Assembly (NCBI RefSeq): GCF_007860105.1
Contig: NZ_SJPU01000002.1
Span: 270,837-334,836 of the forward strand
Origin: Allorhodopirellula heiligendammensis
GTDB lineage: Bacteria > Planctomycetota > Planctomycetia > Pirellulales > Pirellulaceae
DNA length: 64,000 nt
Direction: 5' to 3'
In this document: positions 48,367 through 62,978 of the stretch, piece after piece
Layout of the letters: each line of letters starts with the position of its first letter
Numbering within the stretch: the stretch's first letter is position 1
Notes under the pieces: model-generated
The model's database searches: none
Told to the model about the DNA's origin: nothing
What the model saw: the letters and a program-made list of their open reading frames with translations, nothing else
Made by a program: the position numbers and the translations under genes

Positions 48367-48981
48367 TTAGAAAACACGTCGACAACGGGGAGGTAGCCAT
48401 GTGTCTGCCGCTGCACTGCGGTCGCTTAGGAGTTGGATCGCTTCTAAATTCTTGAGCATCCAGGGTTGCCATTCGCTCGCATGGAGATTGTGGCAGTAAC
48501 CGGCCAACGCCGCGATCGGCCCACTGTGACTGACCGCAATGACCTTGGTGGCGTGGTCGATTCTCCCAAGGTCGCCGAACCATTGCACTACGCGAGATTG
48601 CATCTCCGTCGTAGTCTCACCACCGGGTGGGCGGTAGTTGTCGGGATCATCGACCAACCCATTGAAGTTTTCAGGATCACTGTGGTAGACGCGATCCCAT
48701 GTTGCTCCCTGCCAATCCCCATAGTCGCGTTCACGCAGTCGATCATCTTCGATTACTCGTGCCGATGGGAAATGAACCGCGATCATTTTCGCCAAAGACG
48801 CCGTACGGCTCAGCCCGCTATGAAAAACGAAATCGGCACGCGACTGTTGACCAATCGCCGCTGCAAGGGTTTGCCCTGCGGCCTGTCCTGCGGGACTGAG
48901 GGGCACGTCCATGGCCCCATAGCAAATCGACTTCCACTGAGGTTCTACTTCACCATGGCGAATCAAAGTGACATCAAGCAC
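48367..48981 (-). CDS. cobC: Alpha-ribazole phosphatase (histidine phosphatase family)
   Basis: 204 aa with the phosphoglycerate-mutase-type motif LIRHGEVEPQWKS at the N-terminus (His nucleophile) and VIAVSHSGPIAAL in the C-terminal half. In the nucleotide-loop pathway it removes the phosphate from alpha-ribazole 5'-phosphate or adenosylcobalamin 5'-phosphate. It is the last gene of the operon and overlaps cobS by eight bases. A general histidine phosphatase is the alternative, but the position argues for the cobalamin role. Confidence 0.87.
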   Translation of the reverse strand: MLDVTLIRHGEVEPQWKSICYGAMDVPLSPAGQAAGQTLAAAIGQQSRADFVFHSGLSRTASLAKMIAVHFPSARVIEDDRLRERDYGDWQGATWDRVYHSDPENFNGLVDDPDNYRPPGGETTTEMQSRVVQWFGDLGRIDHATKVIAVSHSGPIAALAGYCHNLHASEWQPWMLKNLEAIQLLSDRSAAADTWLPPRCRRVF

Positions 48982-49795
48982 GACTGACGCCCCAGGTAGA
49001 CGCGATCAAAATTACCAACTGAACCAAGTATGCACTGCAACCCAACAAATCCCCAGTCGTTCCGCCGACTCTCGAAATGATTTTCCGCCGAAACCAGGCG
49101 AGCACCACTCCACCGGCGAGTAACCCACACACTGCGGTCAGCGGCGACAGGATGATCCACGCGGCGATACATGGAAAGCCTATGAGAGAAGCGTAGACGA
49201 GCGTACGACTCGTTTGAGTCTGCGAAATCTGTCCAGCTTGTGAATCTCGGTCGACGACAGGCTCCGTGGTCACCATCATCGCTACGATGGCAACGCGTCC
49301 CAACGCGGCTGCCGCCACGATGCTGGCCCATGCCCAAACCGGTTGGCCTGCGATCAACTCCGCAGTTGTGACGATCCGAATTCCGACACCGATAATGAGC
49401 GACAGCGTTCCATAAGTCCCCAGTCGGCTGTCCTTCATGATGGTGAGGACTTGCTCACGCGTCCAACCGCCACCCAGTGCATCCCAGGTGTCGGCAAGGG
49501 CATCTTCATGAAACGCGCCGGTCAGCCAGGCCTCGCCGCCAATAGCCAGCAGCGCGGCCACGAGTGGAGATAGCCCATACATGGCACACATTGCAACGCT
49601 GGCCGTACACAGTCCCACACAGCCACCAACCAGCGGAAAAAACACGACGGATCGGCGAAGTGCAGCATAAAATACTTCGGCGGAACCGTGCGTTACGCCG
49701 GGGACTGGAATGCGTGTCAGGAACTGCACCGCAGTGGCAAACGCAACCCACATGGAAACGGCAGACGCGTTTGCTTCGGTAGGCGATGAACTCAC
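48974..49795 (-). CDS. cobS: Adenosylcobinamide-GDP ribazoletransferase (cobalamin synthase)
   Basis: 273 aa, integral membrane. It contains AVQFLTRIPVPG at the N-terminus, FFPLVGGCVGL and GAFHEDALADTWDALGGGWTREQVLTIMKDSRLGTYG, the conserved acidic CobS motif. It joins adenosylcobinamide-GDP to alpha-ribazole (or its phosphate), the final condensation of cobalamin. It is coupled to cobT by an ATGA overlap. Confidence 0.95.
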   Translation of the reverse strand: MSSSPTEANASAVSMWVAFATAVQFLTRIPVPGVTHGSAEVFYAALRRSVVFFPLVGGCVGLCTASVAMCAMYGLSPLVAALLAIGGEAWLTGAFHEDALADTWDALGGGWTREQVLTIMKDSRLGTYGTLSLIIGVGIRIVTTAELIAGQPVWAWASIVAAAALGRVAIVAMMVTTEPVVDRDSQAGQISQTQTSRTLVYASLIGFPCIAAWIILSPLTAVCGLLAGGVVLAWFRRKIISRVGGTTGDLLGCSAYLVQLVILIASTWGVSRA

Positions 49796-50844
49796 GGCGA
49801 CTCCAGTTCAGCGAGTGTGGCCATCCCGTTGATCATCGCAGCCGCTAAGTCGACTAATGGTAACGCTGCTAGCGCCCCCGTCCCTTCGCCCAAACGGCAT
49901 CCCAAGTCCAAAACAGGTGATAACCAGAGTTGCTGCAAAGCGGCTTGATGTCCTGGCTCCGCCGAACGATGGCCTGCGATCATATTCAGCTTCGTCTGCG
50001 GGTGTATCGCGTCAGCCAACAATGCTGCGGACGTTGCGATATAACCGTCCAAAATAATGACCAACCCAAGAGCTGCCGCTCGTGCATAAAACCCAGAGAG
50101 CGCCACGATCTCCAGTCCGCCGACTTCACAGCCAATTTGCTGGGCATCAAGTGGTTCCAATGCACGCACACGGGCAATCGCATCCTCAACGACCCGTACT
50201 TTTTTTGCCAAACCAATATCGTTCAGGCCAGCACCACGTCCGACAGCATCCTGGACGTCAACACCTGCCAACAGACTCGCCAAACAACTCGCTGCGGTCG
50301 TGTTGCCGATCCCCATCTCACCGCCGATTACCAGTCGGCAGCCGTCATCGTTGGCTGCGTCCGCTCGCGCACTGCCGACCGCCCACGCGTGGTCGAACTC
50401 TTCGCCAGTCATGGCCGCAGCGAAACGCAGATTCCCTGTCCCCCGGCGTCCAGCGGCGTCAATGAACTGAACCGCCGATCCTGGAATCCGAGAAGCAGGC
50501 AACCGAGCACGCAAGCCCACATCGACGACTTCGTATTCACAATGCAAATGCTCAGCAAACACGCCGCTCGCTGTCCGCCCTGACTGCATCACCCGAGTGA
50601 CCAAACCTGTCACTTCACTTGGCCACGCCGTCACGCCTTCACTCGTCACGCCATGATCTGCCGCAAAGACGACGACGCGGCGGGGCGAGACAGATGGCGA
50701 CAACGTGCCTTGAATTGCACACAGCTTGCGAGCGATCGACTCCAGTTCACCCAAACTTCCCGGTGGTTTGCATAAACTGTCGATGCGAGCATTGATATCG
50801 TGACTTGATGGAGCCTGCATCATGCTGAATATTCTTGGTTGCAT
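49792..50844 (-). CDS. cobT: Nicotinate-nucleotide--dimethylbenzimidazole phosphoribosyltransferase
   Basis: 350 aa. Motifs: INARIDSLCKPPGSLGELE, VVVFAADHGVTSEGV, GGEMGIGNTTAAS and a C-terminal AMINGMATLAELES. It activates the lower-ligand base by transferring phosphoribose from nicotinate mononucleotide. The base (dimethylbenzimidazole) would be supplied by the BluB domain encoded a few genes upstream. It is separated from the chelatase gene by about 140 bases, in which I see no promoter or riboswitch. Confidence 0.95.
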   Translation of the reverse strand: MQPRIFSMMQAPSSHDINARIDSLCKPPGSLGELESIARKLCAIQGTLSPSVSPRRVVVFAADHGVTSEGVTAWPSEVTGLVTRVMQSGRTASGVFAEHLHCEYEVVDVGLRARLPASRIPGSAVQFIDAAGRRGTGNLRFAAAMTGEEFDHAWAVGSARADAANDDGCRLVIGGEMGIGNTTAASCLASLLAGVDVQDAVGRGAGLNDIGLAKKVRVVEDAIARVRALEPLDAQQIGCEVGGLEIVALSGFYARAAALGLVIILDGYIATSAALLADAIHPQTKLNMIAGHRSAEPGHQAALQQLWLSPVLDLGCRLGEGTGALAALPLVDLAAAMINGMATLAELESP

Positions 50845-50986: not shown

Positions 50987-53900
50987 CTATCCTGTAGCAA
51001 CTCGCCTGTACTGCAAAAAAGCGCCGAGTACGAACAGAAGCATCATGACCGCGATTGTATTCACGGTCCGCCATGTCATGGACGGCGATTCATCAACGAT
51101 TTCATCCGGAGATTGTCGCTGGGGGCGTAACTCTTGTCCACGCACAAACTGGGTCGGTTGGTTTGCGGTTACTTCGTTGGCGGCTGCATCAGGCTTGGCC
51201 CCGGTCGCAACCTCTCGTTGCGCCGAGACAAACTGGGTCACAGCCTGATGGCGTTGAATTAATTCGCTCGCTTGCGTCGCATCCGCATAGGCCTCTAGCA
51301 AAGTCGCACGACTCTCGGCATCGGGTTGCCAATACCCCAAGCGAACTGCGTCGATCATACGTTCGAGTATCTGTGCCAGTGCGGCATGGTTGTCTTGCTG
51401 GAACCACTCCCGTGTCCCCAAGTTATATTTATCGTTGACGTACACATCCATCATCGAGTGCCACTGATCCTCACGAACCGTTTCAGGAGCCGTTACCTGC
51501 CAACCCCATAAAAATTTGGTGGCTTTGAGAACCTGTAGTGTTCCGCTGTATCCTTCTGCTTGCTGTGCCTTGATCCATTGCGGATGCAAGTAACGAGTCT
51601 GCATTTCCTTGGCGATCGCACCGCTGGCTGAATCCACGATCACCTCCGATTCGTCACGCAAATTCTGAACGTAGAGTTCCGGCGGCTTACGCCCCGCTGC
51701 CCTTACTGCGAGAGAAAAACCGCCGAGGTAAGCGTAGGGATCGTCGCTCGTCAGAACCCCGTACGTATTCGACGAGCGAGCCATGAATGCAGCATCGACG
51801 TTCGCGAGCTGATGGGCGAACAGTTTCGCTGCCGGCACGCCGCCGAGCCCTTCGCCATACGCGTGCCCCATCCGCTGCGTGAACAGTTCCGCCATGGCAG
51901 TGTCCCCTCCGCCTCGCGTTTGCGACTCCCACACGTCACTGGCATCGGCGGCATTGTTCAGTCCTGTTCCGTATCCGCCGGACTCGTTCGAAAACACCCT
52001 CGCGGTCGATTGTCGAACTGCGTCCGTCACGGCAACCCCACTTTCCTCCAGTGTTCGACGTAGCCGCTCGGTGTGCCGAGCAACGTAATTGACCGAGTCA
52101 CTCGGCGTCTCGTCAGCGGATGCTTCGAGAGCCGCGACCGCTACCACAGCTTCATCAATCCATTTCATCAAATGCGGAAACTGATCGCGATAGGAACCTG
52201 TCACACTCATCAAGACATCAAGTCGAGGCCGACCTAGTTGAGATGCTGGGACGATGTCGAATCCGGTCATCCGGCCGGATCCATTCCAGCGTGGACGAAC
52301 GCCCAGCGCGTGCATGATTTGAGCCTCCATCACACCGTGATGTCGCATCGCTTCTCCAGCCCACATGGTGAAAGCAATCTGTTGGGGATACTCGCCATCG
52401 TGTTTATGGCGGTAGCTTTCGATCCAATCATCCAACACGCCCACACCAATCTGCCACGCCTGTGTGGTAGGAACTCGGGACGGATCAAAACCATACAAAT
52501 TTCGTCCCGTCGGTAGACTCTCTGGGTTGCGAACCGGATCACCGCCGTAGCTCGACGGCACATGTTGGCCATCGAGTGCGGCAAGTAACGATTCGATCTC
52601 GTTGTTTTGAGCCAGCACCGTATCGAGTCGCTGGGCTTCATGGGCTAGTTCTAATAATTCGGCTGGGTCGAGTGTCTTTTCCGCCGCTCGGTTCGGCACC
52701 GACGTGTAGGCACTGGAGTCTAACCGGTCGATCGCACGTAAATCCAATCGACTGGCCGCTTCGGGATCCTGCAACGCCAATCGAAGCCACCGGCCGGGCC
52801 GCGAATTGGTGACTTGTTCTGCATCGATCAGGAACACTTCATCAATGTCTTCGCCCAACGCATCAATCAAGCGTTTTCGCAGCATTTGCATCACCATGCC
52901 AAAACGACGCTGCGGATCGGGGACATCGCCCAACACTGCTAGCCCTTGTGGTTGTGCTGATTGAGCGATGTCGTCCAAGTACGGATGCAATACTTCCATG
53001 AAGGCTGGAAAGTCGCCACCAATTTGCTCGGGCGACCATTCCAGGTCTCTATCCAAATGGTGTTCGACGAACAACTCAATAAGTTGCCTTTCCAACTGAT
53101 TGCGTACCGGACCGGGGGCCACGGTTTCCCAATCGTGCATCAGCACGTGCATCTCATGCAGTCCCGGACGAAAACCGGCAGGCGAGAACATCGGTGTCAG
53201 ATGACTGATCATCGTCGCCCGCCCGCGACGCTTAGCGGTTGTCGCCTCGCCCAAGTTGTCCATGATGTAGGGGTAGAAGTTTGGAATCGATCCGAGCGCC
53301 AGCGACGGATCGTCGTCAACGGAAAGTGCTCGCTGTTTACCAGGTGCCCATTCGAGCGTGCCGTGGGTGCCGAAGTGGACGACTGCGTGGGCCTGCCAAT
53401 GACTACGTAGATACAGGTAGGTCGCCAAGTAGGTATGACTCAGCGGGACCGACGAAGTATGATTGATGCGTTTGACTCGCACCTCCGTCTCGGTCGCCGA
53501 GGTGATTTCAAATCGCAGCGGTTGGGGCATGATACAAACGTTGCCAACCTGGAGGCGCGGGATCACAAATCCGAAATCGTCCTCGATTTGTACCGCACTG
53601 GCGGAGGGCGGTCCCCAATAGTCTTCAATTCTCTGTTGCGTCGCAACAGGCAATTGATCGAACCACGCTTGGTAGACGCCAAGCGGTAGCAACTCGGCGC
53701 TGCCTTCGGCGTGCTGCGCGACCAATCGCGCAGGATCATAGACCGAACGTAGGCAGGACTGGATCTCAGACGTGATCACGGACTCATCCAACCCTTCGGT
53801 TTCGTAGCCGCCGAGCTTCATCGCCTGGAGAACATTCGCCAGACTCCTGGGAACGTTCAAAAAAGAGGCCCCAAAGTTAGTTTCGCCCTGCGGGTAGTTG

Positions 53901-55105
53901 TAAACCATCATGGCGATTCGGCGTTCGGACCGCTCGCTTTGTTGCAGTCGACATATCGACTTGGCCTTCGCTGCAACTGCTTCGGTTTGCTCAGGGATGG
54001 ACTCCAGCAAACTCGTTTTTGAATTGCGAGCCGAGATTAGTATGGGATCAATCATGCCAGCCAATTCACTCGATGCGTAATAATACGACAAGCTCCCTAG
54101 AGGCAATCCCTCATCGCTGGCCCTCCACTGCTCGGCGTCAAACTCCAGCGACGGCAGCGTTTGCAGTACAGGCACGCCGATCAAATCAAGCTCCGCTTTT
54201 GTTTCTTGAGGCCGAAAGACGAGGGATGCGTTGATAATTAGATCGGCATAGCGAGTAGAATTGCCATCAATCTCTCGACGAGTCATTTGCGCAAACCGTT
54301 CAGCATTCTGACGCGGACCGTAGAATGCGTAGGCATGCAGACCATGCTTGGCCAGCGACGCAATCAATGCGTCCAACCATGCGGTGTCACCGGATGATAT
54401 TGTGACAGGATTGATGGCGATGGCGACAATGCTCTTGACACTCGTTTCGCGCTCACGCTGCCCCTCCAAATTGCCGTCGAGCAACCCGGCAACGGTATCT
54501 AAACTCGTTTGAATATCCGGCCAATCAGGGTGATAAAAACCCTGTTCTGGAAATGGTTTTGCGGCGGGCAATTCTGTCGTCGCTTCCACATCGTCGAGCG
54601 ATCCGTCCGCAAGGGCAGCAACCAAAAATTCCGTGTTTGCTTGGCCACCATAACGGTAGTACTCGCGGATCCGTGCTGCCCAAGCCTCAGGCACTTGGAC
54701 GTGATCTTGTAGTGGTTTGACGTCCGGTAGATCACCGCTGCGAACCTGTTGCGTGTCTCCGATCACGACATAGGGTAATTTCGAATGCTCAATCGCAGCG
54801 CTCGCGGTGGCAATCATTCCAGGCACCACACTCGCGTGCGGAAGATCGACTAAGACCAATCGAGAGCGAGACAATGCCGCTCGCAGGTCTTCCGTCTGGA
54901 CGGAATCCACTAGCAAGAAACGCACTTCAATACCAGCCTCATGAGCAGTCGCCTGCAAGGTCGCTGCGCGGGCAGGTGCCATCAAATAGGTATGCAGCAT
55001 GGTTACCGTATCAGAATCTTCCGCAACCACATGGCCACAAGCGGACACACTCAACATCAGTAGCCAACAAGCGGCCTGAAGGCGGATCAAATCAAAACGC
55101 AGCAT
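50987..55105 (-). CDS. cobN: Secreted, membrane-anchored CobN-like tetrapyrrole chelatase
   Basis: 1372 aa. The CobN/BchH/ChlH core is clear: YNYPQGETNFGASFLNVPRS (403-422), the family signature HFGTHGTLEWAPGK (577-590), FTMWAGEAMRHHGVMEAQI and the later SDDPYAYLGGFSLAVRAAG and YLHPQWIKAQQAEGYSG. Unlike cytoplasmic CobN, it starts with a signal peptide (residues about 8-29) and ends with a TM followed by Arg residues (about 1347-1366). That places the large domain outside the cytoplasm. It overlaps the DUF2149 gene by one base (TGATG). No cobS/cobT-type AAA+ subunits of the aerobic chelatase are present. HmuS-like proteins are the closest idea. Confidence 0.85.
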   Translation of the reverse strand: MLRFDLIRLQAACWLLMLSVSACGHVVAEDSDTVTMLHTYLMAPARAATLQATAHEAGIEVRFLLVDSVQTEDLRAALSRSRLVLVDLPHASVVPGMIATASAAIEHSKLPYVVIGDTQQVRSGDLPDVKPLQDHVQVPEAWAARIREYYRYGGQANTEFLVAALADGSLDDVEATTELPAAKPFPEQGFYHPDWPDIQTSLDTVAGLLDGNLEGQRERETSVKSIVAIAINPVTISSGDTAWLDALIASLAKHGLHAYAFYGPRQNAERFAQMTRREIDGNSTRYADLIINASLVFRPQETKAELDLIGVPVLQTLPSLEFDAEQWRASDEGLPLGSLSYYYASSELAGMIDPILISARNSKTSLLESIPEQTEAVAAKAKSICRLQQSERSERRIAMMVYNYPQGETNFGASFLNVPRSLANVLQAMKLGGYETEGLDESVITSEIQSCLRSVYDPARLVAQHAEGSAELLPLGVYQAWFDQLPVATQQRIEDYWGPPSASAVQIEDDFGFVIPRLQVGNVCIMPQPLRFEITSATETEVRVKRINHTSSVPLSHTYLATYLYLRSHWQAHAVVHFGTHGTLEWAPGKQRALSVDDDPSLALGSIPNFYPYIMDNLGEATTAKRRGRATMISHLTPMFSPAGFRPGLHEMHVLMHDWETVAPGPVRNQLERQLIELFVEHHLDRDLEWSPEQIGGDFPAFMEVLHPYLDDIAQSAQPQGLAVLGDVPDPQRRFGMVMQMLRKRLIDALGEDIDEVFLIDAEQVTNSRPGRWLRLALQDPEAASRLDLRAIDRLDSSAYTSVPNRAAEKTLDPAELLELAHEAQRLDTVLAQNNEIESLLAALDGQHVPSSYGGDPVRNPESLPTGRNLYGFDPSRVPTTQAWQIGVGVLDDWIESYRHKHDGEYPQQIAFTMWAGEAMRHHGVMEAQIMHALGVRPRWNGSGRMTGFDIVPASQLGRPRLDVLMSVTGSYRDQFPHLMKWIDEAVVAVAALEASADETPSDSVNYVARHTERLRRTLEESGVAVTDAVRQSTARVFSNESGGYGTGLNNAADASDVWESQTRGGGDTAMAELFTQRMGHAYGEGLGGVPAAKLFAHQLANVDAAFMARSSNTYGVLTSDDPYAYLGGFSLAVRAAGRKPPELYVQNLRDESEVIVDSASGAIAKEMQTRYLHPQWIKAQQAEGYSGTLQVLKATKFLWGWQVTAPETVREDQWHSMMDVYVNDKYNLGTREWFQQDNHAALAQILERMIDAVRLGYWQPDAESRATLLEAYADATQASELIQRHQAVTQFVSAQREVATGAKPDAAANEVTANQPTQFVRGQELRPQRQSPDEIVDESPSMTWRTVNTIAVMMLLFVLGAFLQYRRVATG

Positions 55106-55437
55106 CAGTGTCCTTCCTCTTTGTGTGGGACGTAAACCATCGATCCATCCTTCATCCGATAGGCAGTTCCAGCCGCTGTGCCAGTGCCTTCCGACGAACT
55201 ACCGGTTGACTGAAACCGAGTCAGTGTTTCGCCTTCGCGAACAACAATCTCCATGGAAGATTCGCCCTCATTTCGAATCAGCGTGAAATCTCCGTGCATC
55301 ATTTCGGTCATCGGATGTCTCATCAAACCAATCATCAACATCGCCATTGCCACCAAGAAGACATCGACCAGATTGATCGACGATAGCATGGGATCGGTAT
55401 CTTCATCATCGAGAATTTTGATGCGGCGATCGCTCAT
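55105..55437 (-). CDS. DUF2149-like single-TM protein
   Basis: 110 aa from the ATG at 55437, which overlaps the ExbB-like stop (ATGA). Short acidic N-terminus (LDDEDTDPMLSSINLVDVFLVAMAMLMIGLM), one TM, then a small extracytoplasmic domain ending in a Gly/Met-rich hairpin and YVPHKEEGH. The layout, one TM with a membrane-proximal Asp (LVDVF), is like ExbD/TolR, and the sequence resembles DUF2149. It probably forms the second subunit of the proton channel with the upstream gene. Confidence 0.75.
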   Translation of the reverse strand: MSDRRIKILDDEDTDPMLSSINLVDVFLVAMAMLMIGLMRHPMTEMMHGDFTLIRNEGESSMEIVVREGETLTRFQSTGSSSEGTGTAAGTAYRMKDGSMVYVPHKEEGH

Positions 55438-55892
55438 GACTGCGTCTCCATCCAGTAGCTCAGCTCCTGCAGCAGCCAACGGCGGCGGACGGTGTAGATA
55501 GCGAACGCGATCGACGCAGCGACCAACGCCACGATCACGGTAGCGAAGGCATCGGCCAGACCGGCGGCAGCGGTGTCTGTTTGCCCGGCGGAAACCGCTG
55601 CCAAGGCCGGTCCGAGCGGGATCATCGTGGCGACCAAACCGAGCATGGGCGCCACTCGGCTGCACAGTTTCAGTCCCTCCAACTCGCCGAGCACAATCAA
55701 TTCCATCTCTTCAAGCGATCGTCCAGCACCCGCTGGAAGTATCAGGATACGATTAGGACGCCCCATTCGCTGAAACGACTCGACGAGGAAGCCACCCAGC
55801 TTCAAGATGGCGTAGCCAAACGATAGCAGCACCAACAGCATGATCGGCCACCAGAATGCCTGCGCGAGGTCAAAAAGCAATTTTTCTATCAT
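55434..55892 (-). CDS. MotA/TolQ/ExbB-family proton channel subunit
   Basis: 152 aa. Three TMs: residues about 13-32 (WWPIMLLVLLSFGYAILKLG), 80-105 and 115-135 (FATVIVALVAASIAFAIYTV). The conserved cytoplasmic-proximal segment ELEGLKLCSRVAPMLGLVATMIPLGPALAAVS is the ExbB/TolQ/MotA pattern, in which a Thr/Ser-Pro motif lines the channel. It is shorter than ExbB. With DUF2149 it probably uses the proton gradient to energise the anchored chelatase encoded next. It lies 21 bases after the decarboxylase-BluB gene. Confidence 0.85.
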   Translation of the reverse strand: MIEKLLFDLAQAFWWPIMLLVLLSFGYAILKLGGFLVESFQRMGRPNRILILPAGAGRSLEEMELIVLGELEGLKLCSRVAPMLGLVATMIPLGPALAAVSAGQTDTAAAGLADAFATVIVALVAASIAFAIYTVRRRWLLQELSYWMETQS

Positions 55893-55913: not shown

Positions 55914-57695
55914 TTAACGGGTGATCCAGTGCTCGCTGACATCGCGACGTTCCTCCCAGTTTCGGAGTTGTAGTTCGGGAATTGTTCGATCGGGATGCAA
56001 CGGGTATCCCACGCACAGGTAGGCAATCAATTCCCATTGCGGCGGAACGTTCAAAAGCCTGCCAATCTGCTCTGGTCTCACAATCGAAACCCAACCCACA
56101 CCCACGCCGTCGCAACGCGCCGCCAGCCAGAAATTTTGGATTGCAGCCACCACGGAGTAGGCGACCGTCTCGGGCATCGTGCGACGCCCCAGACCGCGAC
56201 CTTGGTGCGGATCCGGTTCAACAAATACTGCCAATTGCTCCGGTGCTTCGCGTAAGCCAGCCAGCTTCAAACTCAGATAGTTTTCTCGAGCCACACCTTC
56301 ATAACCTGCTGCTGCGGTAGCATTCTGAGATTCAAACTCCCGCACGATGTGGCGGCGAGTTTCGGCATCACGCACCGATACGAATCGCCAAGGCTCCGAC
56401 AATCCCACCGACGGAGCCAGTACAGCGGCGTCGATCCACCGCGCCAGTAGCTCGGGGGGAATCGCGTCCGAAGAAAACCGCCGCACGTCCCGTCGCATCC
56501 GGAACAACTCATATAGTTGTGTGCGGAACGAGTCACCTTCGAAATCATCGGAGTCGTCTATCTTTCCTCTAAGGGTGAGATCAGAACTGCGATGCGAAGT
56601 GCTGAGGGAAGGAGTGTCCAACGCGGTCAGGAATCGGTCGGTCGCCGCAGCATCTCCGACCGCGATCCGAACATAATTTGACAGGCCAAAAGAATGGCAA
56701 TCGCGGACCAACACTCCCTGACGGAGCAGCCGATTGCGAAACACCCCAGCGTTCTCGACTGGCATCAGAAAAAAGCCAGTATCCGTGACGAGAGGCTGGA
56801 AGCCGCGGCGAGTTAGCTCGTCTATCAATCGACCTCGCTGCTCACGCATTCTCAGCATCGCGTGGTCGTAGTGCTGCTGGGCAGCCAATGCAGCTGCGCC
56901 TGCTGCTTGTGCGATCGCGTTGACTGACCACGGCACACGACATGCGCTGATCGATCTTACGCGTGCTGCTGACGCGACCAAATACCCCAGCCGCAGGCCC
57001 GCCATGGAATGGGACTTTGTTAAGGAACGAAGTACCACCAAATTCTCAAACGTGTCATGGATTAACGACTCAGTCGCCTCCGAAAATTCGATATACGACT
57101 CATCGATAATAAATGTCGTGCGTGGGAATTTTGCAATCCACTGGCGGATCACGTCCGCGCCGATGGCTTGTCCAGTGGGATTGTTTGGATTGCAAATCCA
57201 GATAACGCGATAGGCTTTTCGGCGCAACTCCATCTCGACGGTTTCGGTTGGCACAGCAAACCCGTCGGCTTGATCGGCAAGAATCACGGTTGACTGCAGG
57301 CCGGCCAGACACGACGCTCGCTCATACTCCGAGAACGTCGGCCCCAGAATGACGCTTTGTGTTGTAGGCGCGTCAGCCCCGTCACGCTGCGCTCCCACGC
57401 CATGGGCGGCAAGCAAATGGATCAGCTCGCAGCAGCCATTGCCCACCAGCACGCGTTCCTGGGCAACGTCATGTCGCTCCGCAATCGCAGTACGTAGCAC
57501 GCTGGAGTTTCGATCCGGGTATGGTGAGATCGCGGCCGATTCGATCGCCTGCTGAACAGCCTTGGGATGATCCACTCGCAACAAATTGGAGCTGAGGTCG
57601 AGCACAGTGTCGGGGGCGATACCCTGGCGACGTAGCTCATCCCAGTCGATACCACCATGAACCGCCTCGTTTGAATCCAGGTGCTGTAAATTCAC
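55914..57695 (-). CDS. Fused threonine-phosphate decarboxylase (CobD/CobC-type) and BluB
   Basis: 593 aa from a GTG at 57695 that shares GTGA with the cbiB stop. The N-terminal half (about 1-365) is a PLP aminotransferase-fold decarboxylase with WICNPNNPTG (about 167-176), FIIDESYIEF and the PLP Lys in RSLTKSHSMAGLRLGY (about Lys227). It makes aminopropanol phosphate for the nucleotide loop. The C-terminal part (about 390-593) is BluB: FRMRRDVRRF, APSVGLSEPWRFV and GVGVGWVSI, which makes dimethylbenzimidazole from FMN. Fusion of these two steps is unusual. Confidence 0.9.
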   Translation of the reverse strand: MNLQHLDSNEAVHGGIDWDELRRQGIAPDTVLDLSSNLLRVDHPKAVQQAIESAAISPYPDRNSSVLRTAIAERHDVAQERVLVGNGCCELIHLLAAHGVGAQRDGADAPTTQSVILGPTFSEYERASCLAGLQSTVILADQADGFAVPTETVEMELRRKAYRVIWICNPNNPTGQAIGADVIRQWIAKFPRTTFIIDESYIEFSEATESLIHDTFENLVVLRSLTKSHSMAGLRLGYLVASAARVRSISACRVPWSVNAIAQAAGAAALAAQQHYDHAMLRMREQRGRLIDELTRRGFQPLVTDTGFFLMPVENAGVFRNRLLRQGVLVRDCHSFGLSNYVRIAVGDAAATDRFLTALDTPSLSTSHRSSDLTLRGKIDDSDDFEGDSFRTQLYELFRMRRDVRRFSSDAIPPELLARWIDAAVLAPSVGLSEPWRFVSVRDAETRRHIVREFESQNATAAAGYEGVARENYLSLKLAGLREAPEQLAVFVEPDPHQGRGLGRRTMPETVAYSVVAAIQNFWLAARCDGVGVGWVSIVRPEQIGRLLNVPPQWELIAYLCVGYPLHPDRTIPELQLRNWEERRDVSEHWITR

Positions 57696-58681
57696 GGCTG
57701 ATTTCCTAAACCTGTACACCAATGGATCAGATAACCGCTGAGGCAGGTTAACGTCACTGCTAAAACAATTGTGCGTTGGTAAAGGGTTATCATCCGCTCG
57801 ATATCCGGCGCCGCTGGCGGCGGGAACTGGCTGCCGATCCGATAGTGGCTGCGTTTCTCCAAACAAACACCCAGCGATCCGGCAGCGGCACTCATTGGCT
57901 GACCCGCATTCGGACTGGCCGTTGCCCTGGCGTCGCTGCGCCAAGTCTTCCAAGCACGCACACGATCGCCATGGCCCACGCTCGCAGCAACCATTAACAG
58001 CGCGGTGATCCGGGCTGGAAGAACATTGAGCACATCATCGAGTCGAGCCGCTGGCTTGCCCAACCATTCCAGTCGCTCGGTACGGTAACCCAGCATCGCA
58101 TCGCAGGTATTGATGAACCGATAAATCAACGCTCCTGGCAAACCGGCCACGACAAAGAAAAGCAGCGGCGCAATGACGGAATCAGACGTATTCTCGGCTA
58201 CTGACTCAATCGTCGCTGCGGAAACTTCCGCGGCTGATAATTCCGACACATCGCGACTGACTAAATGAAACGCTAATTGCTCTCGCGCTTTGAACAAATT
58301 CTTGTCAAGCAGTTCGGTTGCGACCGATCGCGCCGCATCTTGCAACGATCGAAATCCAAAACAGCATTTTAGCACCATCGCCTGAATCAACACCCCCAAG
58401 CCCCCGTTCGCATTCGCCTGCACTACCCAACCCAACATTCCGCATAAAACCGCCCCCACCACCACGATCCCACACCCGCACAAGAACTCTCCGCAGCGAT
58501 GATCTGCGCGACCTGCTGCCTTCTTGACATTTGCGAACCGACTGTCCCACACCCGATTCCACCAGCTAATCAACGATCCCATCCAAGCGACCGGATGCCA
58601 ACGGTTGGGTGGTTCCCCAAACGCGACGTCCAAAGTCACGGCAATCAAAATCACTGCTGGGGTCCACGCGTAATTCAGCAT
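57692..58681 (-). CDS. cbiB: Adenosylcobinamide-phosphate synthase (CbiB/CobD)
   Basis: 329 aa, polytopic membrane protein. Motifs: LDVAFGEPPNRWHPVAWMGSLI near the N-terminus, VSRDVSELSAAEVSAATIESVAENTSDSVIAPLLFF and INTCDAMLGYRTER. It links aminopropanol (phosphate) to the corrin acid side chain, the step just before CobU. It overlaps btuD by seven bases and the fusion gene by four. Confidence 0.95.
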   Translation of the reverse strand: MLNYAWTPAVILIAVTLDVAFGEPPNRWHPVAWMGSLISWWNRVWDSRFANVKKAAGRADHRCGEFLCGCGIVVVGAVLCGMLGWVVQANANGGLGVLIQAMVLKCCFGFRSLQDAARSVATELLDKNLFKAREQLAFHLVSRDVSELSAAEVSAATIESVAENTSDSVIAPLLFFVVAGLPGALIYRFINTCDAMLGYRTERLEWLGKPAARLDDVLNVLPARITALLMVAASVGHGDRVRAWKTWRSDARATASPNAGQPMSAAAGSLGVCLEKRSHYRIGSQFPPPAAPDIERMITLYQRTIVLAVTLTCLSGYLIHWCTGLGNQP

Positions 58682-59472
58682 GCGACATCCCCTGGCAAGA
58701 CAGGCACGATCACCGGCGTTGCATAGACCGGATGCTGCATAATGGAGACATCAATCCCGTAGGTCTGCTTGATTCGCTCGCGAGTCAGAACCTCGGCGAC
58801 ACTCCCCGATGCGAAGACGCGTTGATCGGCTAACAGCGAGATCCGATCGGCGAACATGGCTGCTTGATTCAAATCGTGGAGCGTCACGATGGCGATCAGT
58901 TGCTTCTCTCGCACCAGCCGACGAATGTGATCAAGACATTCGTACTGGTGTCTTAAATCCAATCCACTGGTTGGTTCATCCAACAACAGCGCCGACGCTC
59001 CTTGTGTCAGCGATCGCGCCAGAATAGCCCGTCGCCATTGGCCTCCCGATAACGTCGTGATCGCTTGTTCTTGAAACGGCGTCATCTGCGTCACGGCCAA
59101 TGCCTCGTCGACGATGTGTTCATCGGCTTCGTTGAGCGGCATTAACCAACCGCGATGAGCGGCTCGCCCCAACCGCACTAACTCGCGCACCGAGATTGCG
59201 GACTCGCAACGTTCCGCTTGGGGCATCAATGCCAGACGCTGTGCACGATCGCGTGTCGACCACTCGTCGACAGGCCTCCCGTCCAACCACACTCTGCCCC
59301 CACCGGGACACAGATGCCCCGCCAATATGCGCAGCAAGGTCGTCTTGCCAGCCCCGTTGCCGCCGAGCAGCACCATCAGCTCACCCGGCCGCAACTCCAG
59401 TGACAATTCACGAATCACATCACGTTCGGTATCGAAACCAAACGTCAAGTTCTCGGCACGCAAGATCGTCAT
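58675..59472 (-). CDS. btuD: Cobalamin/corrinoid ABC transporter ATP-binding protein
   Basis: 265 aa from the ATG at 59472, which overlaps the permease stop (ATGA). Walker A LGGNGAGKTTLLR, Q-loop LALMPQAE, signature LSGGQWRRAILARSL and Walker B ALLLDEPTSG follow, then a His switch (VTLHD). It belongs to the FecE/BtuD group that powers corrinoid or ferric-siderophore uptake. Its position inside the cobalamin operon makes corrinoid the likely substrate. Confidence 0.9.
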   Translation of the reverse strand: MTILRAENLTFGFDTERDVIRELSLELRPGELMVLLGGNGAGKTTLLRILAGHLCPGGGRVWLDGRPVDEWSTRDRAQRLALMPQAERCESAISVRELVRLGRAAHRGWLMPLNEADEHIVDEALAVTQMTPFQEQAITTLSGGQWRRAILARSLTQGASALLLDEPTSGLDLRHQYECLDHIRRLVREKQLIAIVTLHDLNQAAMFADRISLLADQRVFASGSVAEVLTRERIKQTYGIDVSIMQHPVYATPVIVPVLPGDVAC

Positions 59473-60503
59473 GCCGTCGCTCCCATCAACGCACCACGCC
59501 GGTCGCGGAGCAGCAGCCATAGGAAGAAGGGGCACCCCAGGATCGCCGTCACAATTCCCACCGGTAACTCGGCAGGGGCCATGATCGTGCGAGCAACCGC
59601 ATCGGCCAGTAGCATCAGCGAAGCGCCAATGCAAACACTCATTGGGATCAAATGCACGTGCCGCGTCCCCACCAACGAGCGTGCGATGTGCGGCGAGATC
59701 AACCCCACAAACCCGATCACCCCCGACGAAGCGACAGCGCCTGCCGTCGCGATACTTGAGGCTGCAATGATCAGCCAACGGAAGCGACGCAAATCCAATC
59801 CAAGCGAACGTGAAGCGGTATCTCCCAGCGCGAAGGCGTCCAAGGGTCTGGCCAGGGCAAAGATAGAGAGCGTCCCCATCCCGCCAAGTACTCCCACCAT
59901 CGCCGCACTGCCCCAGTGGCTGCTGGCCAACGAGCCCATCAACCACGACAAAATCACGACTGCCTTCTGGTCAAACAGGAACATCAATGCCGAGACGATC
60001 GCCCCAGCCATGCTGCTGATTACGACGCCTGCCAACAGCAGAGAAGTTGTTGAATCCGTGCGGCCCAAGCCGCCAATAGCAAGTACCAGCATCACCACCC
60101 CGATCGACCCGATCATGGCCATCAAGGCTGTCGCACCAAGTGACCAAAGCGACGCCTGTAGGCCCCAGATCACGACCACCGCTACGCCGAGGGAAGCGCC
60201 ACTGGACGCACCGATCACATATGGCTCTGCCAAAGGGTTGCGAAACAATCCCTGGAAACCAACGCCAGCTGCCGCGAGCGAACCACCGACAAGCATCGCT
60301 GCGATCGTGCGAGGCAGTCGCAACTGCGTCAAGATGATCCACTCGGTTTCATCGAGCGGCGACCGCCCCACCAACGCATCCACCAATCGTGAAGCTGAGA
60401 TGGACGTCGCGCCGACGAAGCATACCGACGCCGCAATAGCCAAGGTGGCGACTGCCGCCAGAACAATTCGCATCAGCAGCGATGTCGTACTGAAGCCTCT
60501 CAT
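59469..60503 (-). CDS. btuC: Corrinoid ABC transporter permease (FecCD family)
   Basis: 344 aa with about nine to ten TMs. Motifs: RLPRTIAAMLVGGSLAAAGVGFQGLFRNPLAEPYVIGASSGA and IGFVGLISPHIARSLVGTRH, the FecCD/BtuC signatures including the cytoplasmic coupling loop. It is overlapped at both ends by ATGA, with btuF upstream and btuD downstream. Function: inner-membrane passage of corrinoids released by BtuF. Confidence 0.92.
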   Translation of the reverse strand: MRGFSTTSLLMRIVLAAVATLAIAASVCFVGATSISASRLVDALVGRSPLDETEWIILTQLRLPRTIAAMLVGGSLAAAGVGFQGLFRNPLAEPYVIGASSGASLGVAVVVIWGLQASLWSLGATALMAMIGSIGVVMLVLAIGGLGRTDSTTSLLLAGVVISSMAGAIVSALMFLFDQKAVVILSWLMGSLASSHWGSAAMVGVLGGMGTLSIFALARPLDAFALGDTASRSLGLDLRRFRWLIIAASSIATAGAVASSGVIGFVGLISPHIARSLVGTRHVHLIPMSVCIGASLMLLADAVARTIMAPAELPVGIVTAILGCPFFLWLLLRDRRGALMGATA

Positions 60504-61708
60504 GGCGTCTCGGCAACCACATCCGGAGTCAACTCAGCAATCTCCGCGGCGGTATTGGGGTACGCAGCCACAATAATTTCCGCCACCGCGTCGAGCACGC
60601 GCGGGCCACAACGCGAAATCAAGTCACCCGAGATCACATAAATGCGATGTTCGTTTACCGCATTGATGGCTCCCCACCCCGGCCGGGCACCGAAGGATTC
60701 AATGTCGACACGCTTCAAGTGCGACGTCGGTGCCAAAATCAGATCAGGGTTACCACGGATTACCGTTTCCGCATTAATTCTGGGATATGCGATGTCAGTG
60801 TCCGTGATGATATTTTGTAATCCCGCCAGCAACAGCAGTTCGGCGATAAACGAATCGGGGCCAGCCGTCATCAATGGTTCATCCCAGACCTCATAGAACA
60901 CACTCAATGATGGTTCAGGACGCACCCGCTCGACGATCCGTCGGAGTGACTGATGTTTCGTTTGCATCGTCGCCACCAATGTTTCGGCTTCGCTAACGTG
61001 CCCTGTCAGCCGGCCCAACCAATCGGCCTCCTCAAACAGCTCATCGAGGTTCTTAGGCCCGATTGCGAGCGTCGAGATGTGGAGCCGGTCGAGCGACTCG
61101 AGCAGGGGCTGGTGCCTGTCCCACTTGCACAAGACCAAGTCAGGCTGGGCGGCAATGATGGCTTCAACGCTAATACTCTCCAATGTTCCGCCGCCGACGC
61201 GAGGAAGCTCAAGGGCGGCAGAAGGGAAGTCACTATGAGTCGTCGCCCCCACCAATGAGGAACCGGCACCGATGGCATAAAGTAACTCGGTCGTCGCTGG
61301 TGACAAACTTATGATTCGTCGCGCTGGTTCACCGACGCGAATCGTTCGATCCAGTCGATCAACGATGACGTGCTGTGTCTCGGGTTGCACGCGTGAGGCG
61401 ATCGGTTGGGATGCGCGACCGCAACCTGACGCGGCAAACACCAATCCAATCGTCAAAAGAACGCAAGCCTGAACTGATAAATCATTGGGCTTGAATCGAC
61501 GTTTCGCCGCACGATTCTCAAGTTGCGTTGCTTCAGTGTTCTGACTCGCTACAGCGTCTGTACGATGGAGCGTAGGATGGGACCATTGTTCCGTCCGGGA
61601 CCTCACTTCTGCACGCTCGGGACAATAGTCCCACGCTACGCATCCAGGACCGCGTCGCAACATATCGGATCGCAAGCCCCGCGTAGACAGTTCATTAAGG
61701 TCAATCAC
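60500..61708 (-). CDS. btuF: Corrinoid-binding lipoprotein BtuF-like, with odd N-terminal extension
   Basis: 402 aa. Residues 79-96 form a lipoprotein signal ending FAASGC, with Cys96; the mature domain (about 110-385) has RRIISLSPATTELLYAIGAG, VGATTHSDFPSAALELPRVGG and PDLVLCKWDRH, typical of BtuF/FepB-like binding proteins. The 78 residues before the signal are unusual. Residues about 21-48 are encoded by an 81-base palindromic element (61566-61646). The only start codons with coupling to cobU (ATG at 61708, overlap ATGA) lie upstream of it, so it is translated. Confidence 0.88.
   Translation of the reverse strand: MIDLNELSTRGLRSDMLRRGPGCVAWDYCPERAEVRSRTEQWSHPTLHRTDAVASQNTEATQLENRAAKRRFKPNDLSVQACVLLTIGLVFAASGCGRASQPIASRVQPETQHVIVDRLDRTIRVGEPARRIISLSPATTELLYAIGAGSSLVGATTHSDFPSAALELPRVGGGTLESISVEAIIAAQPDLVLCKWDRHQPLLESLDRLHISTLAIGPKNLDELFEEADWLGRLTGHVSEAETLVATMQTKHQSLRRIVERVRPEPSLSVFYEVWDEPLMTAGPDSFIAELLLLAGLQNIITDTDIAYPRINAETVIRGNPDLILAPTSHLKRVDIESFGARPGWGAINAVNEHRIYVISGDLISRCGPRVLDAVAEIIVAAYPNTAAEIAELTPDVVAETP
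61566..61646. repeat. Long palindromic element within btuF
   Basis: Two arms of about 28 bases pair around a 24-base loop. From outside in: TGGA with TCCA (61566-61569, 61643-61646), GCGTAG with CTACGC, then TGGGACCATTGTTCCG against CGGGACAATAGTCCCA with only one mismatch and one G-T. It is inserted in frame at the 5' end of btuF. Such units look like REP/MITE-type dispersed palindromes; copy number elsewhere cannot be checked here. Confidence 0.75.
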
Positions 61709-62349
61709 AACACATCACTCCGTTGCAAACCATCGGCGGCGTCCTGTACCGACGAGGCGATCTTGGTAGCGTTGATCGCCAGTCCAGCTACCATCCAATA
61801 CGTCGCGTCCGCCGATGCGGCGATGCGTTGATTGGCAAGGCCCAACAGATCGCGAAATAGGCGTCCGGCAGCGTGTTCAGGCACGACGCCCGCGCCGACT
61901 TCCCCCGACACGATCACCAAATCGATCCTACGCTGCCGGGCCACCTCGATCAGCTCATCGACTTCCGCCAATACTCGCGACTCCCAATCGTCCACCGCTG
62001 CGTCATGCCGTTGCTCATCACACATCACATTGCTGACAAGCAGCGTCAAACAATCCACCAAGACCAGGGATGGCAGATCTCGCACGTCAGCGATCGCACG
62101 TCCGATATTGAGTGGACTCTCGACTGTTTGCCACGCTGCATTGCGAGTGCGACGATGGTGCTCGATCCGCCGCGTCATCTCTCCGTCGAGCGGTTGAGCA
62201 GTAGCGACATACAGGACGTCATCACCTTTCAATTGTCCAGCGAGTTGCTCCGCAAAGCGGCTTTTACCACTCCTCGCGCCACCGACCACTAACGTGATGG
62301 AACCACCGGCGGCATTTCCCCCACGATCCAGCGAATTAAAAACGTTCAA
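61705..62349 (-). CDS. cobU: Adenosylcobinamide kinase/adenosylcobinamide-phosphate guanylyltransferase
   Basis: 214 aa. P-loop VVGGARSGKSRFAEQL, then VATAQPLDGEMTRRIEHHRRTR and VLVDCLTLLVSNV, the CobU signatures, plus VIVSGEVGAGVVPEHAAGRLFRD. It phosphorylates and guanylylates adenosylcobinamide for CobS. It overlaps cobO and btuF by four bases each. Confidence 0.96.
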   Translation of the reverse strand: MNVFNSLDRGGNAAGGSITLVVGGARSGKSRFAEQLAGQLKGDDVLYVATAQPLDGEMTRRIEHHRRTRNAAWQTVESPLNIGRAIADVRDLPSLVLVDCLTLLVSNVMCDEQRHDAAVDDWESRVLAEVDELIEVARQRRIDLVIVSGEVGAGVVPEHAAGRLFRDLLGLANQRIAASADATYWMVAGLAINATKIASSVQDAADGLQRSDVL

Positions 62350-62978
62350 AACTCTACCCCGCGCTGTGGTTGAATACCGTGGCCGTAGGGATGCTTAATG
62401 ACCTTCATCTCCGATACGAGATCCGCAATTTCGATCACCTCATCGCTGGCGTTTCGCCCCGTCAGGACAACGTGCAGCATCGGCCGCTTAGCTAAAAGTT
62501 CCTGGACCACGATTGAGGGAGAGATGTAGTCATACTTGGTTGCGATATTCAGCTCGTCCAAGATGACCATGTCGATGGCTGGATTGCGCATCAGCTCAAC
62601 GGCCTTGGCCCAGCCCGTCATCGCGGTCGCGATGTCTCGCTCGCGGTCTTGTGTTTTCCATGTGAACCCCTCGCCCATCGTGTGCATTTCGATCGGCATC
62701 CCAGCAGCTGCAATTTTTTCCACGAACGCCGCTTCGCCTGTGGGGATCGCCCCTTTAATGAACTGCACAATCGCTACCCTCATGCCTTGGCCGAGAGAGC
62801 GAATTGCCATTCCAAATGCCGCCGTTGATTTTCCTTTGCCGGCACCGGTATGAACAATGATCAGCCCTTTTTCCTGGGTTGCCTCTGCCAGTTGCCGGTC
62901 CTTGATTTCATTCAGACGCACCATGCGTTTGCGGTGCTCTTCATTCGTCTCGTCAGGAAGTTGTTTTTCAGTGTTCAT
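62346..62978 (-). CDS. cobO: Cob(I)yrinic acid a,c-diamide adenosyltransferase (CobO/CobA type)
   Basis: 210 aa. The helical N-terminal region is followed by P-loop VHTGAGKGKSTAAFG, then IVQFIKGAIPTGE, VILDELNIATKYDYIS, and VVLTGRNASDEVIEIADLVSEMKVIKHPY. It adds the 5'-deoxyadenosyl group to corrinoids. It overlaps cobQ and cobU by four bases each. Confidence 0.95.
   Translation of the reverse strand: MNTEKQLPDETNEEHRKRMVRLNEIKDRQLAEATQEKGLIIVHTGAGKGKSTAAFGMAIRSLGQGMRVAIVQFIKGAIPTGEAAFVEKIAAAGMPIEMHTMGEGFTWKTQDRERDIATAMTGWAKAVELMRNPAIDMVILDELNIATKYDYISPSIVVQELLAKRPMLHVVLTGRNASDEVIEIADLVSEMKVIKHPYGHGIQPQRGVEF

Follow-up and report, generated by a model that had tools for sequence, protein, structure and literature searches.

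The closest described relatives of the system reported here belong to the hmu operons of the Bacteroidota, in which HmuS, a CobN-type body anchored in the inner membrane, moves metal out of a tetrapyrrole without ATP (PMC12583661). The metal site of HmuS lies between His538 and His1209, with Glu1212 behind; CobN and ChlH act together with partner proteins that require ATP (PMC12583661). The association of an anchored CobN with ExbB-like and DUF2149 genes has already been described for these operons (PMC12583661, PMC13227078, PMC10434189). Rodionov (2003), as cited in PMC6460266, put BtuS forward as a third type of CobN, and cobalamin, not haem, has been suggested as the target of a Hmu-like operon in B. 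fragilis that is led by a riboswitch (PMC10100974). Here we describe an exbB–DUF2149–cobN trio of Allorhodopirellula heiligendammensis, located in a window of 64,000 nucleotides (nt), the whole stretch of DNA that was analysed (contig NZ_SJPU01000002.1, positions 270,837–334,836 of the forward strand). Its CobN-like protein looks like a corrin-handling cousin of HmuS, the gut-bacterial protein that removes iron from haem. Genomes and loci are designated below by G and L numbers.

The original prediction, made from the letters of the window, of three overlapping genes encoding an ExbB/TolQ-family protein, a DUF2149 protein and a 1372-residue CobN homologue was confirmed in place by the Pfam profiles (Table 1). 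The overlaps were 4 nt at the ExbB stop and DUF2149 start (ATGA) and 1 nt between DUF2149 and CobN (TGATG). The trio is embedded in a minus-strand operon with the order cobQ-cobO-cobU-btuF-btuC-btuD-cbiB-cobD/bluB-[exbB-DUF2149-cobN]-cobT-cobS-cobC, and the cobalamin setting that had been proposed was reinforced by a B12 riboswitch upstream of the operon. An Rfam scan of the 64-kb window alone found no riboswitch because this element sits past the right edge. The host genome (7.18 Mb, 97.6% complete) possesses one CobN. No CbiC (PF02570) was found in it, and its only TP-methylase (PF00590) is a SUMT (uroporphyrinogen-III methyltransferase) fused to HemD; the host is therefore apparently devoid of corrin-ring synthesis and salvages corrinoids. 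The predicted lack of an AAA+ chelatase partner also stood, as no ChlI-type protein was found in the genome, all five PF01078 matches being YifB, sigma-54 activators or an ABC ATPase (the CobS and CobT models were not run).

Comparison of the active site with those of HmuS and CobN showed a CobN-type pocket (SDD, LEW). The first pocket histidine, catalytic His538 in the HmuS motif HFG(T/A)HG, is kept (His581), the equivalent residue being His in all 112 aligned proteins covering the site, and Asp1122 and Ala1125 replace His1209 and Glu1212 of HmuS. At the His1209 position, Asp or Glu was present in 13/13 soluble CobN proteins, in 21/21 members of the clade of the window protein (the SDD clade), in 9/9 of the TTDD clade and in 23/23 of clade B, versus His in 11/11 HmuS-type, 7/7 clade D and 4/4 BchH-type proteins. 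This column is partly circular, the classes being named by that motif; the Trp/Phe column (LEW/LEF) and the tree are independent of it. Within the SDD clade the residue was Asp in all 21 proteins covering the site, as well as in L181, and Glu1212 was replaced in the same number (21/21). The HGR haem ligand of HmuS (His254-Gly-Arg) was found in 11/11 planctomycete HmuS-type proteins versus 0/21 SDD proteins covering the site. With both the axial His/Glu motif (LSLDHxxEFMGG) and the HGR ligand missing, membership of the HmuS class was rejected. The domain IV region was shorter in the SDD clade (median of 227 amino acids (aa) versus 346 in the HmuS type), and this length alone separated the classes; the Met content expected of the extended, Met-rich insertion of HmuS (2.6% versus 1.2% in planctomycete HmuS-type proteins) did not. 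The AlphaFold model of residues 130–1300 (pLDDT 84.9, pTM 0.87) had its highest structural Z-score with CobN 7c6o (49.9; 2.5 Å over 977 residues), the best ChlH score being 45.9 and those of HmuS 41.0 and 40.8. The residue differences would offer a testable rule to separate corrin from haem enzymes among proteins that are all named "CobN".

In a first tree of 87 proteins, the anchored proteins were set apart from the soluble CobN and BchH-type proteins, with supports of 0.985 and 1.0 at the midpoint root; a second tree added the Burkholderiales. The anchored subclades were characterised by the motifs LDHVYEF (HmuS-type), NDD (clade B), SNKYxW and similar (clade C), NHHxYEY (clade D) and SDDP (the clade of the window protein). 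The latter contained 22 members from Planctomycetes and Burkholderiales (support 1.0), and its sister, the TTDD clade, contained 8 members in the tree, or 9 loci with L223, placed by motif. The HmuS-type clade was separate from it, with members elsewhere in the phylum and one in the family of the host (G192). CobN open reading frames (ORFs) not exceeding 800 aa (fragments in L061, L088 and L155) were dropped, as were L124 (same record as L002) and L052 (same as the window); L224 was left out of the Burkholderiales tree (its gene was already in as L159), and L223 (803 aa) was in the alignment only. The L181 protein (G622), 63% identical to the window protein and with the motif TSDDAFAYLGG, was in none of the trees, its genome being included in the CbiC count.

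The survey of neighbouring genes linked the SDD clade with cobalamin: at least two core cobalamin genes were present in 19 of the 22 loci and at least one in 20, compared with none in any of the 9 TTDD loci. A cobalamin riboswitch headed the operon in the host and in L003, L004, L181, L205, L208 and L214, and none was found in L002, L005, L006, L204, L206, L209 and L216, where the locus ends at or within the operon. These scans covered 14 SDD-type trio loci (L122, L123, L125, L162, L210, L212, L215, L221 and L222 lay outside them), and a scan of six TTDD loci (L207, L211, L218, L219, L220 and L235) revealed no B12 riboswitch. CbiC was absent from 20 of the 22 genomes with an SDD-type trio, G603 and G810 being the two that have it (G490 and G601 were taken as one genome; G494, G245 and the genome of L162 were not covered). 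As CbiC is rare in the phylum (37 of 244 genomes), this count is no enrichment and shows only that the trio occurs without ring synthesis. A CobB/CbiA-type amidase was present in 10 of 13 Burkholderiales SDD loci examined, by Pfam in L003 and by BLAST to the L003 amidase in L205, L206, L208, L210, L214, L215, L216, L221 and L222; BLAST did not reveal it in L204, L209 and L212.

The trio behaves as an optional insert of the salvage operon. In a sample of 80 genomes of the host family, eight besides the host matched CobQ better than 1e-80, and one more was marginal. The trio lies inside the operon in the host, G446, G514 and G622 and, outside the sample, in Stieleria tagensis (L002) and UBA6163 (L006). 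The operon is without trio in G346 (from the genus group of the Stieleria genome), G612 and G647, cobT directly following cobD or cobD-bluB in G346 and G612. In G652 the cobalamin cluster is a different one that includes CbiC, and G632 shows an isolated match to CobQ. Since the salvage operon exists without the trio, the latter is not needed for salvage and adds something to it. Three similar loci (L231, L224 and L160) have, where the trio would be, a soluble CobN accompanied by AAA partners. G776 (L231), which has no CbiC, shows a comparable set (TonB receptor, CobB-like amidase, CobO and CobD/BluB-like) with CobW, a soluble CobN and two ChlI/D-like ORFs replacing the trio. In G494 the order is DUF1559-CobN-ChlID-CobQ-CobO with the remaining salvage genes and a riboswitch (L159), no match to CobG, CobH, CobI or CobJ being found in the 60 kb read, and the locus of G245 (L160) starts like that of G494. 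The salvage operons thus specify steps later than ring contraction, chelatase included, in cells without CbiC, as in 20 of the 22 genomes with an SDD-type trio. A soluble CobN with CobW and ChlI/D-like ORFs was also observed in the CbiC-negative Burkholderiales G660, G728 and G778 (L231–L234 together with G776), as cobaltochelatases of organisms that apparently do not make the corrin ring.

The signal-like N-terminus and the C-terminal transmembrane (TM) segment previously assigned to the CobN-like protein held on hydropathy. Near the N-terminus, inspection by eye pointed to a lipobox (VSAC) as well as an SPase I site (VVA-ED), both tentative. In an alignment of 88 proteins, a C-terminal hydrophobic segment (score of at least 1.6) was present in 65/73 anchored-clade proteins versus 0/15 soluble CobN, BchH-type and archaeal-type proteins, and an N-terminal one in 52/73 versus 2/15 (the incomplete rows L005, L006 and L161 were kept). 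Judged by hydropathy, the CobN-like body should be anchored in the membrane and face the periplasm. The ExbB of the trio represents a distinct subfamily with the motif LGLxxTxIPxGPAL, in which Thr89 is conserved in 66/67 and Pro82/Pro92 in 67/67 aligned homologues (67 of 74; the other 7 were excluded as ORFs of at least 300 aa). The DUF2149 ORF, 55105–55665, was too long, and its start was reset to the ATG at 55437 according to the PF09919 match, the homologues and the 4-nt overlap. The protein has a single N-terminal TM segment (helix 16–40 in the predicted model) with an acidic residue, as in ExbD/TolR: Asp25 in 37 of 38 aligned proteins and Glu in the other, Glu being found likewise in L151, outside that alignment. 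Fold comparison and a profile search of the PDB sequences returned nothing credible for DUF2149 and no ExbD entry, a result that excludes nothing.

The conservation of the two partner genes beside CobN, a further element of the original prediction, was borne out in 40 of the 41 anchored Planctomycetia loci; the CobN gene of the sole exception, L161, runs off the contig start. Among 244 genomes of the phylum, 28 had CobN and DUF2149, 3 DUF2149 only, 6 CobN only and 207 neither (Fisher p 1e-27), indicating that the linkage is not due to chance. Four of the six CobN-only genomes contained BchH-type or archaeal-type soluble proteins, and two had the gene on short contigs (6.9 and 5.1 kb). No TonB receptor was present within three genes in any of the 41 loci (TonB receptors and DUF1559 were identified with profiles made from seeds confirmed by Pfam and one annotated receptor, the remaining neighbours by BLAST to the window proteins). 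The ExbB-like HmuU and the DUF2149 protein HmuV of the hmu operon were read as TonB-receptor helpers in PMC10100974. For the planctomycete trios, these two counts make a role of ExbB-DUF2149 as mere receptor helpers unlikely. As the two proteins accompany the anchored CobN with or without a TonB receptor nearby, they most likely serve the chelatase.

We propose that the trio represents the corrin-type line of the membrane-anchored CobN proteins (the BtuS/HmuS kind) and works in the periplasm as a chelatase driven by protons, with imported corrins as substrates and cobalt insertion as the probable reaction; we give this reading a probability of about 0.42. In this model, the CobN-like protein would, after export, be retained in the inner membrane through its C-terminal helix, with its six-domain body in the periplasm. 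ExbB and DUF2149 would constitute an ExbB/ExbD-like proton channel replacing the ATP-driven CobST/ChlID motor and driving the conformational cycle of the chelatase, a use of the proton gradient suggested by the gene linkage and the conserved acidic TM residue. The substrate is probably a corrin, which would be imported and met before its uptake by BtuFCD. Cobalt would most likely be put into metal-free or wrongly metallated late corrins (hydrogenobyrinate level), although for cobalt insertion taken by itself we would stay a little short of even odds, and CobO, CobQ, CbiB, CobU, CobT and CobS would then finish B12 in the ring-deficient cell. The riboswitch control, which should turn the operon on when B12 is short, together with the lack of a visible use for freed cobalt, makes insertion or repair a better fit than removal. 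The original prediction had left the choice between inserting cobalt, removing metal and remodelling corrinoids. These options differ in likelihood: insertion or repair agrees with the riboswitch, whereas released cobalt would have no visible B12 use with no CbiC and a single SUMT-type TP-methylase.

Several observations weigh against this proposal. By Z-score ChlH stood above HmuS in most entries, so that fold rank alone gives no substrate; pairwise, the window protein, whole or reduced to its C-terminal part, scored higher with HmuS than with CobN, phmmer placed HmuS first, and the query-normalised TM-score of Foldseek was 0.82 for HmuS 9d26 versus 0.79 for CobN 7c6o. The pocket Asp also occurs in clade B, including a Runella trio in a hydrogenase cluster, and in the TTDD clade, which is without cobalamin genes; it therefore need not mean corrin. 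The structure model of DUF2149 is weak (pLDDT 70.5, pTM 0.33), L125 and L162 are SDD members outside cobalamin gene clusters, and the salvage operon of three relatives (L182, L183 and L184) contains no trio. L231, a locus cut at its upstream end, yielded no riboswitch. The proposal also has to lean on the existence of natural metal-free corrins. Lastly, HmuS itself is a haem de-chelatase, working in the direction of removal (PMC12583661).

A protein of the HmuS type would take iron or another metal from imported porphyrin in the periplasm and would reside in the cobalamin operon only for its uptake genes. The architecture and partners are indeed the same (PMC12583661, PMC10434189), His581 is kept and HmuS comes first in phmmer, but the absence of HGR and of His1209 and Glu1212 from all 21 SDD proteins covering the sites, the B12 riboswitch and the existence of a separate true HmuS-type clade in the phylum and host family make it improbable. 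The body might alternatively bind corrinoids crossing the outer membrane and release them to BtuF, ExbB-DUF2149 powering the release and no metal chemistry taking place. This would account for the optional nature of the trio and for its position under riboswitch control beside btuFCD and, in Burkholderiales, a TonB receptor. It nevertheless seems unlikely: the body retains the catalytic His of its superfamily, the same uptake genes occur in relatives that lack the trio, and the set filling its place in L231, L224 and L160, soluble CobN with ChlI/D-like proteins, has no known transport role.

Removal or exchange of metal in corrinoids, such as the stripping of non-cobalt metals or the recovery of cobalt, would correspond to the known direction of HmuS (PMC12583661) and to the corrin-type pocket. 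The freed cobalt would be without visible B12 use in a genome devoid of CbiC, and a B12-repressed operon that destroys corrinoids would be self-defeating, leaving the stripping of wrong metals as the possible form of such an activity. Cobalt is moreover kinetically inert in corrins, and we regard removal as quite improbable. An ordinary cobaltochelatase subunit of de novo B12 synthesis would agree with the NCBIfam name of the protein, NF004644 "CobN", for which the score (1260 bits) was barely above the cut-off (1248). This was rejected: with no CbiC, only the SUMT-HemD fusion as TP-methylase, no ChlI-type protein among the PF01078 matches, an exported and anchored protein by hydropathy and a position outside the soluble CobN clade, it is hardly credible.

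The proposed proton-driven chelatase shares with HmuS (PMC12583661, PMC10434189, PMC10100974) the inner-membrane-anchored body, both partner genes and the His of H-x-G-T-H-G. The analogy with HmuS drawn by the original prediction was thus correct for architecture, partners and catalytic His and failed for the haem site, the HGR ligand, His1209 and Glu1212 being absent and the domain IV region shorter. The loci differ as well, that of the window having a cobalamin riboswitch and cobalamin-assembly genes and, in Planctomycetia, no TonB receptor beside it. An anchored CobN-like protein in a B12-regulated cluster is also a feature of BtuS and the B. fragilis operon. Unlike that case, the window operon includes cobQ, cobO, cobU, cbiB, cobD, bluB, cobT and cobS, in a host without CbiC. 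To this is added a CobN-like pocket, which BtuS1 of B. fragilis might share. With CobN-CobST and CobN-ChlID the protein has in common Asp/Glu at 1122, Trp at 586 and the overall fold; Gln at 1125, as in aerobic CobN, is found in 17/21 of the SDD clade, whereas the window protein has Ala. It differs from them by its anchoring, by ExbB-DUF2149 in place of an AAA+ partner and by the absence of CbiC from the genome. In PA1922–PA1925 of Pseudomonas aeruginosa, an operon up under zinc depletion, the CobN-like gene is accompanied by those of a TonB receptor and an ExbD-like protein (PMC4542158); judged from the passages describing it, this operon differs in its link with zinc and in that no cobalamin genes are named there. 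In the open-licence PMC literature we found no account of the trio in salvage operons of Planctomycetes and Burkholderiales, of a corrin-type pocket in this clade or of a soluble chelatase set standing in for the trio. As far as this literature goes, the anchored CobN/ExbB/DUF2149 architecture is known, and the salvage-operon setting, the corrin-type pocket and the soluble-set exchange are new.

A wider scheme, in which ring-deficient bacteria bring in late corrins devoid of metal and supply them with cobalt in the periplasm through a chelatase driven by a proton channel and not by an AAA+ ATPase, is doubtful. It would imply that metal-free corrin is a shared good and that B12 "salvage" can start before cobalt is in the ring, which would change the genome-based prediction of B12 producers and users, CobN having served as one of the signs of B12 synthesis (PMC2667541). 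A single place in otherwise similar salvage operons would be filled either by the anchored trio or by the soluble CobN-ChlID set, and the haem and corrin versions would have arisen on one anchored chassis through a pocket change (Asp for His). A proton channel driving a periplasmic chelatase would represent a second energy source for metal-tetrapyrrole chemistry.

Table 1. Features of the trio and of its operon (window positions, or positions in locus L091 beyond the right edge)
Feature	Position	Strand	Evidence or remark
ExbB/TolQ-family proton-channel protein, 152 aa	55434–55892	-	PF01618, 29.6 bits
DUF2149 protein, 110 aa, one TM with Asp in NLVDV (ExbD-like position)	55105–55437	-	PF09919, 83 bits
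CobN-like chelatase homologue, 1372 aa	50987–55105	-	PF02514, 977 bits
Signal-like N-terminus of CobN-like protein, residues 1–29	55019–55105	-	best 19-residue hydropathy 1.61
HFGTHG motif, residues 577–582; His581 at HmuS His538 position	53360–53377	-	alignment
TSDDPYAYLGG, residues 1119–1129; Asp1122 at HmuS His1209 position, Ala1125 at Glu1212 position	51719–51751	-	alignment
C-terminal TM, residues ~1347–1365, then Arg-containing tail	51011–51067	-	hydropathy 1.92
CobD-type aminotransferase fused to BluB-type nitroreductase (ORF start uncertain)	55914–57953	-	PF00155, PF00881; CobD/BluB names inferred from context
CbiB/CobD	57692–58681	-	PF03186
BtuD, BtuC, BtuF corrinoid ABC importer	58675–61708	-	family level; under BtuC/BtuF equivalog cut-offs
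CobU and CobO	61705–62978	-	
CobQ, 521 aa	62975–64000, continuing past window edge to ~G000:C2:335376	-	
CobC-like phosphatase, CobS, CobT (loop assembly)	48367–50844	-	
DUF1559 gene, first of operon, beyond window's right edge	L091:494–1573	-	PF07596
Cobalamin riboswitch upstream of operon, outside window	L091:1738–1966	-	RF00174, 69.9 bits

A DUF1559 (PF07596) pilin-like gene heads the B12-riboswitch operon with or without the trio (host, L002, L006, L181–L184, L159 and L160). It was also found within three genes of the other anchored-CobN Planctomycetia loci in 30 of 35 cases (clade A left out; some are close relatives) versus 8 of 264 more distant genes, and the host genome has 77 DUF1559 matches. 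Since DUF1559 occupies the position held by a TonB-dependent receptor in other phyla, it may be an outer-surface tetrapyrrole receptor.

The other anchored clades showed diverse surroundings. Clades C (L126–L133, L136, L137, L141, L143, L145 and L147) and D (L134, L135, L139, L140, L146 and L150) comprise anchored CobN proteins of Planctomycetia with the same partners and mostly a DUF1559 neighbour, clade D retaining HmuS-like His and Glu in the pocket. The TTDD clade of Burkholderiales (L207, L211, L213, L217–L220, L223 and L235) has CobN with ExbB and/or DUF2149 behind a TonB receptor, and perhaps handles a metal other than cobalt. Clade B trios (L070, L065, L072, L085 and L087) were observed near CobQ and CobD-like genes and a TonB receptor in CbiC-positive genomes, L070 having in addition a CbiQ cobalt transporter gene. 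On plasmid pRUNSL01 of Runella slithyformis (L165, 3146–11180), a TonB receptor, ExbB, DUF2149 and a CobN-like gene are located inside a hyp (NiFe-hydrogenase maturation) cluster, which also encodes a protein with a weak NicO match, below the cut-off; the same chassis may serve nickel there. In Cupriavidus campinensis (L164:7440–16504), a soluble CobN gene is preceded at short distance, and on the same strand, by a gene for an anchored CobN-like protein.

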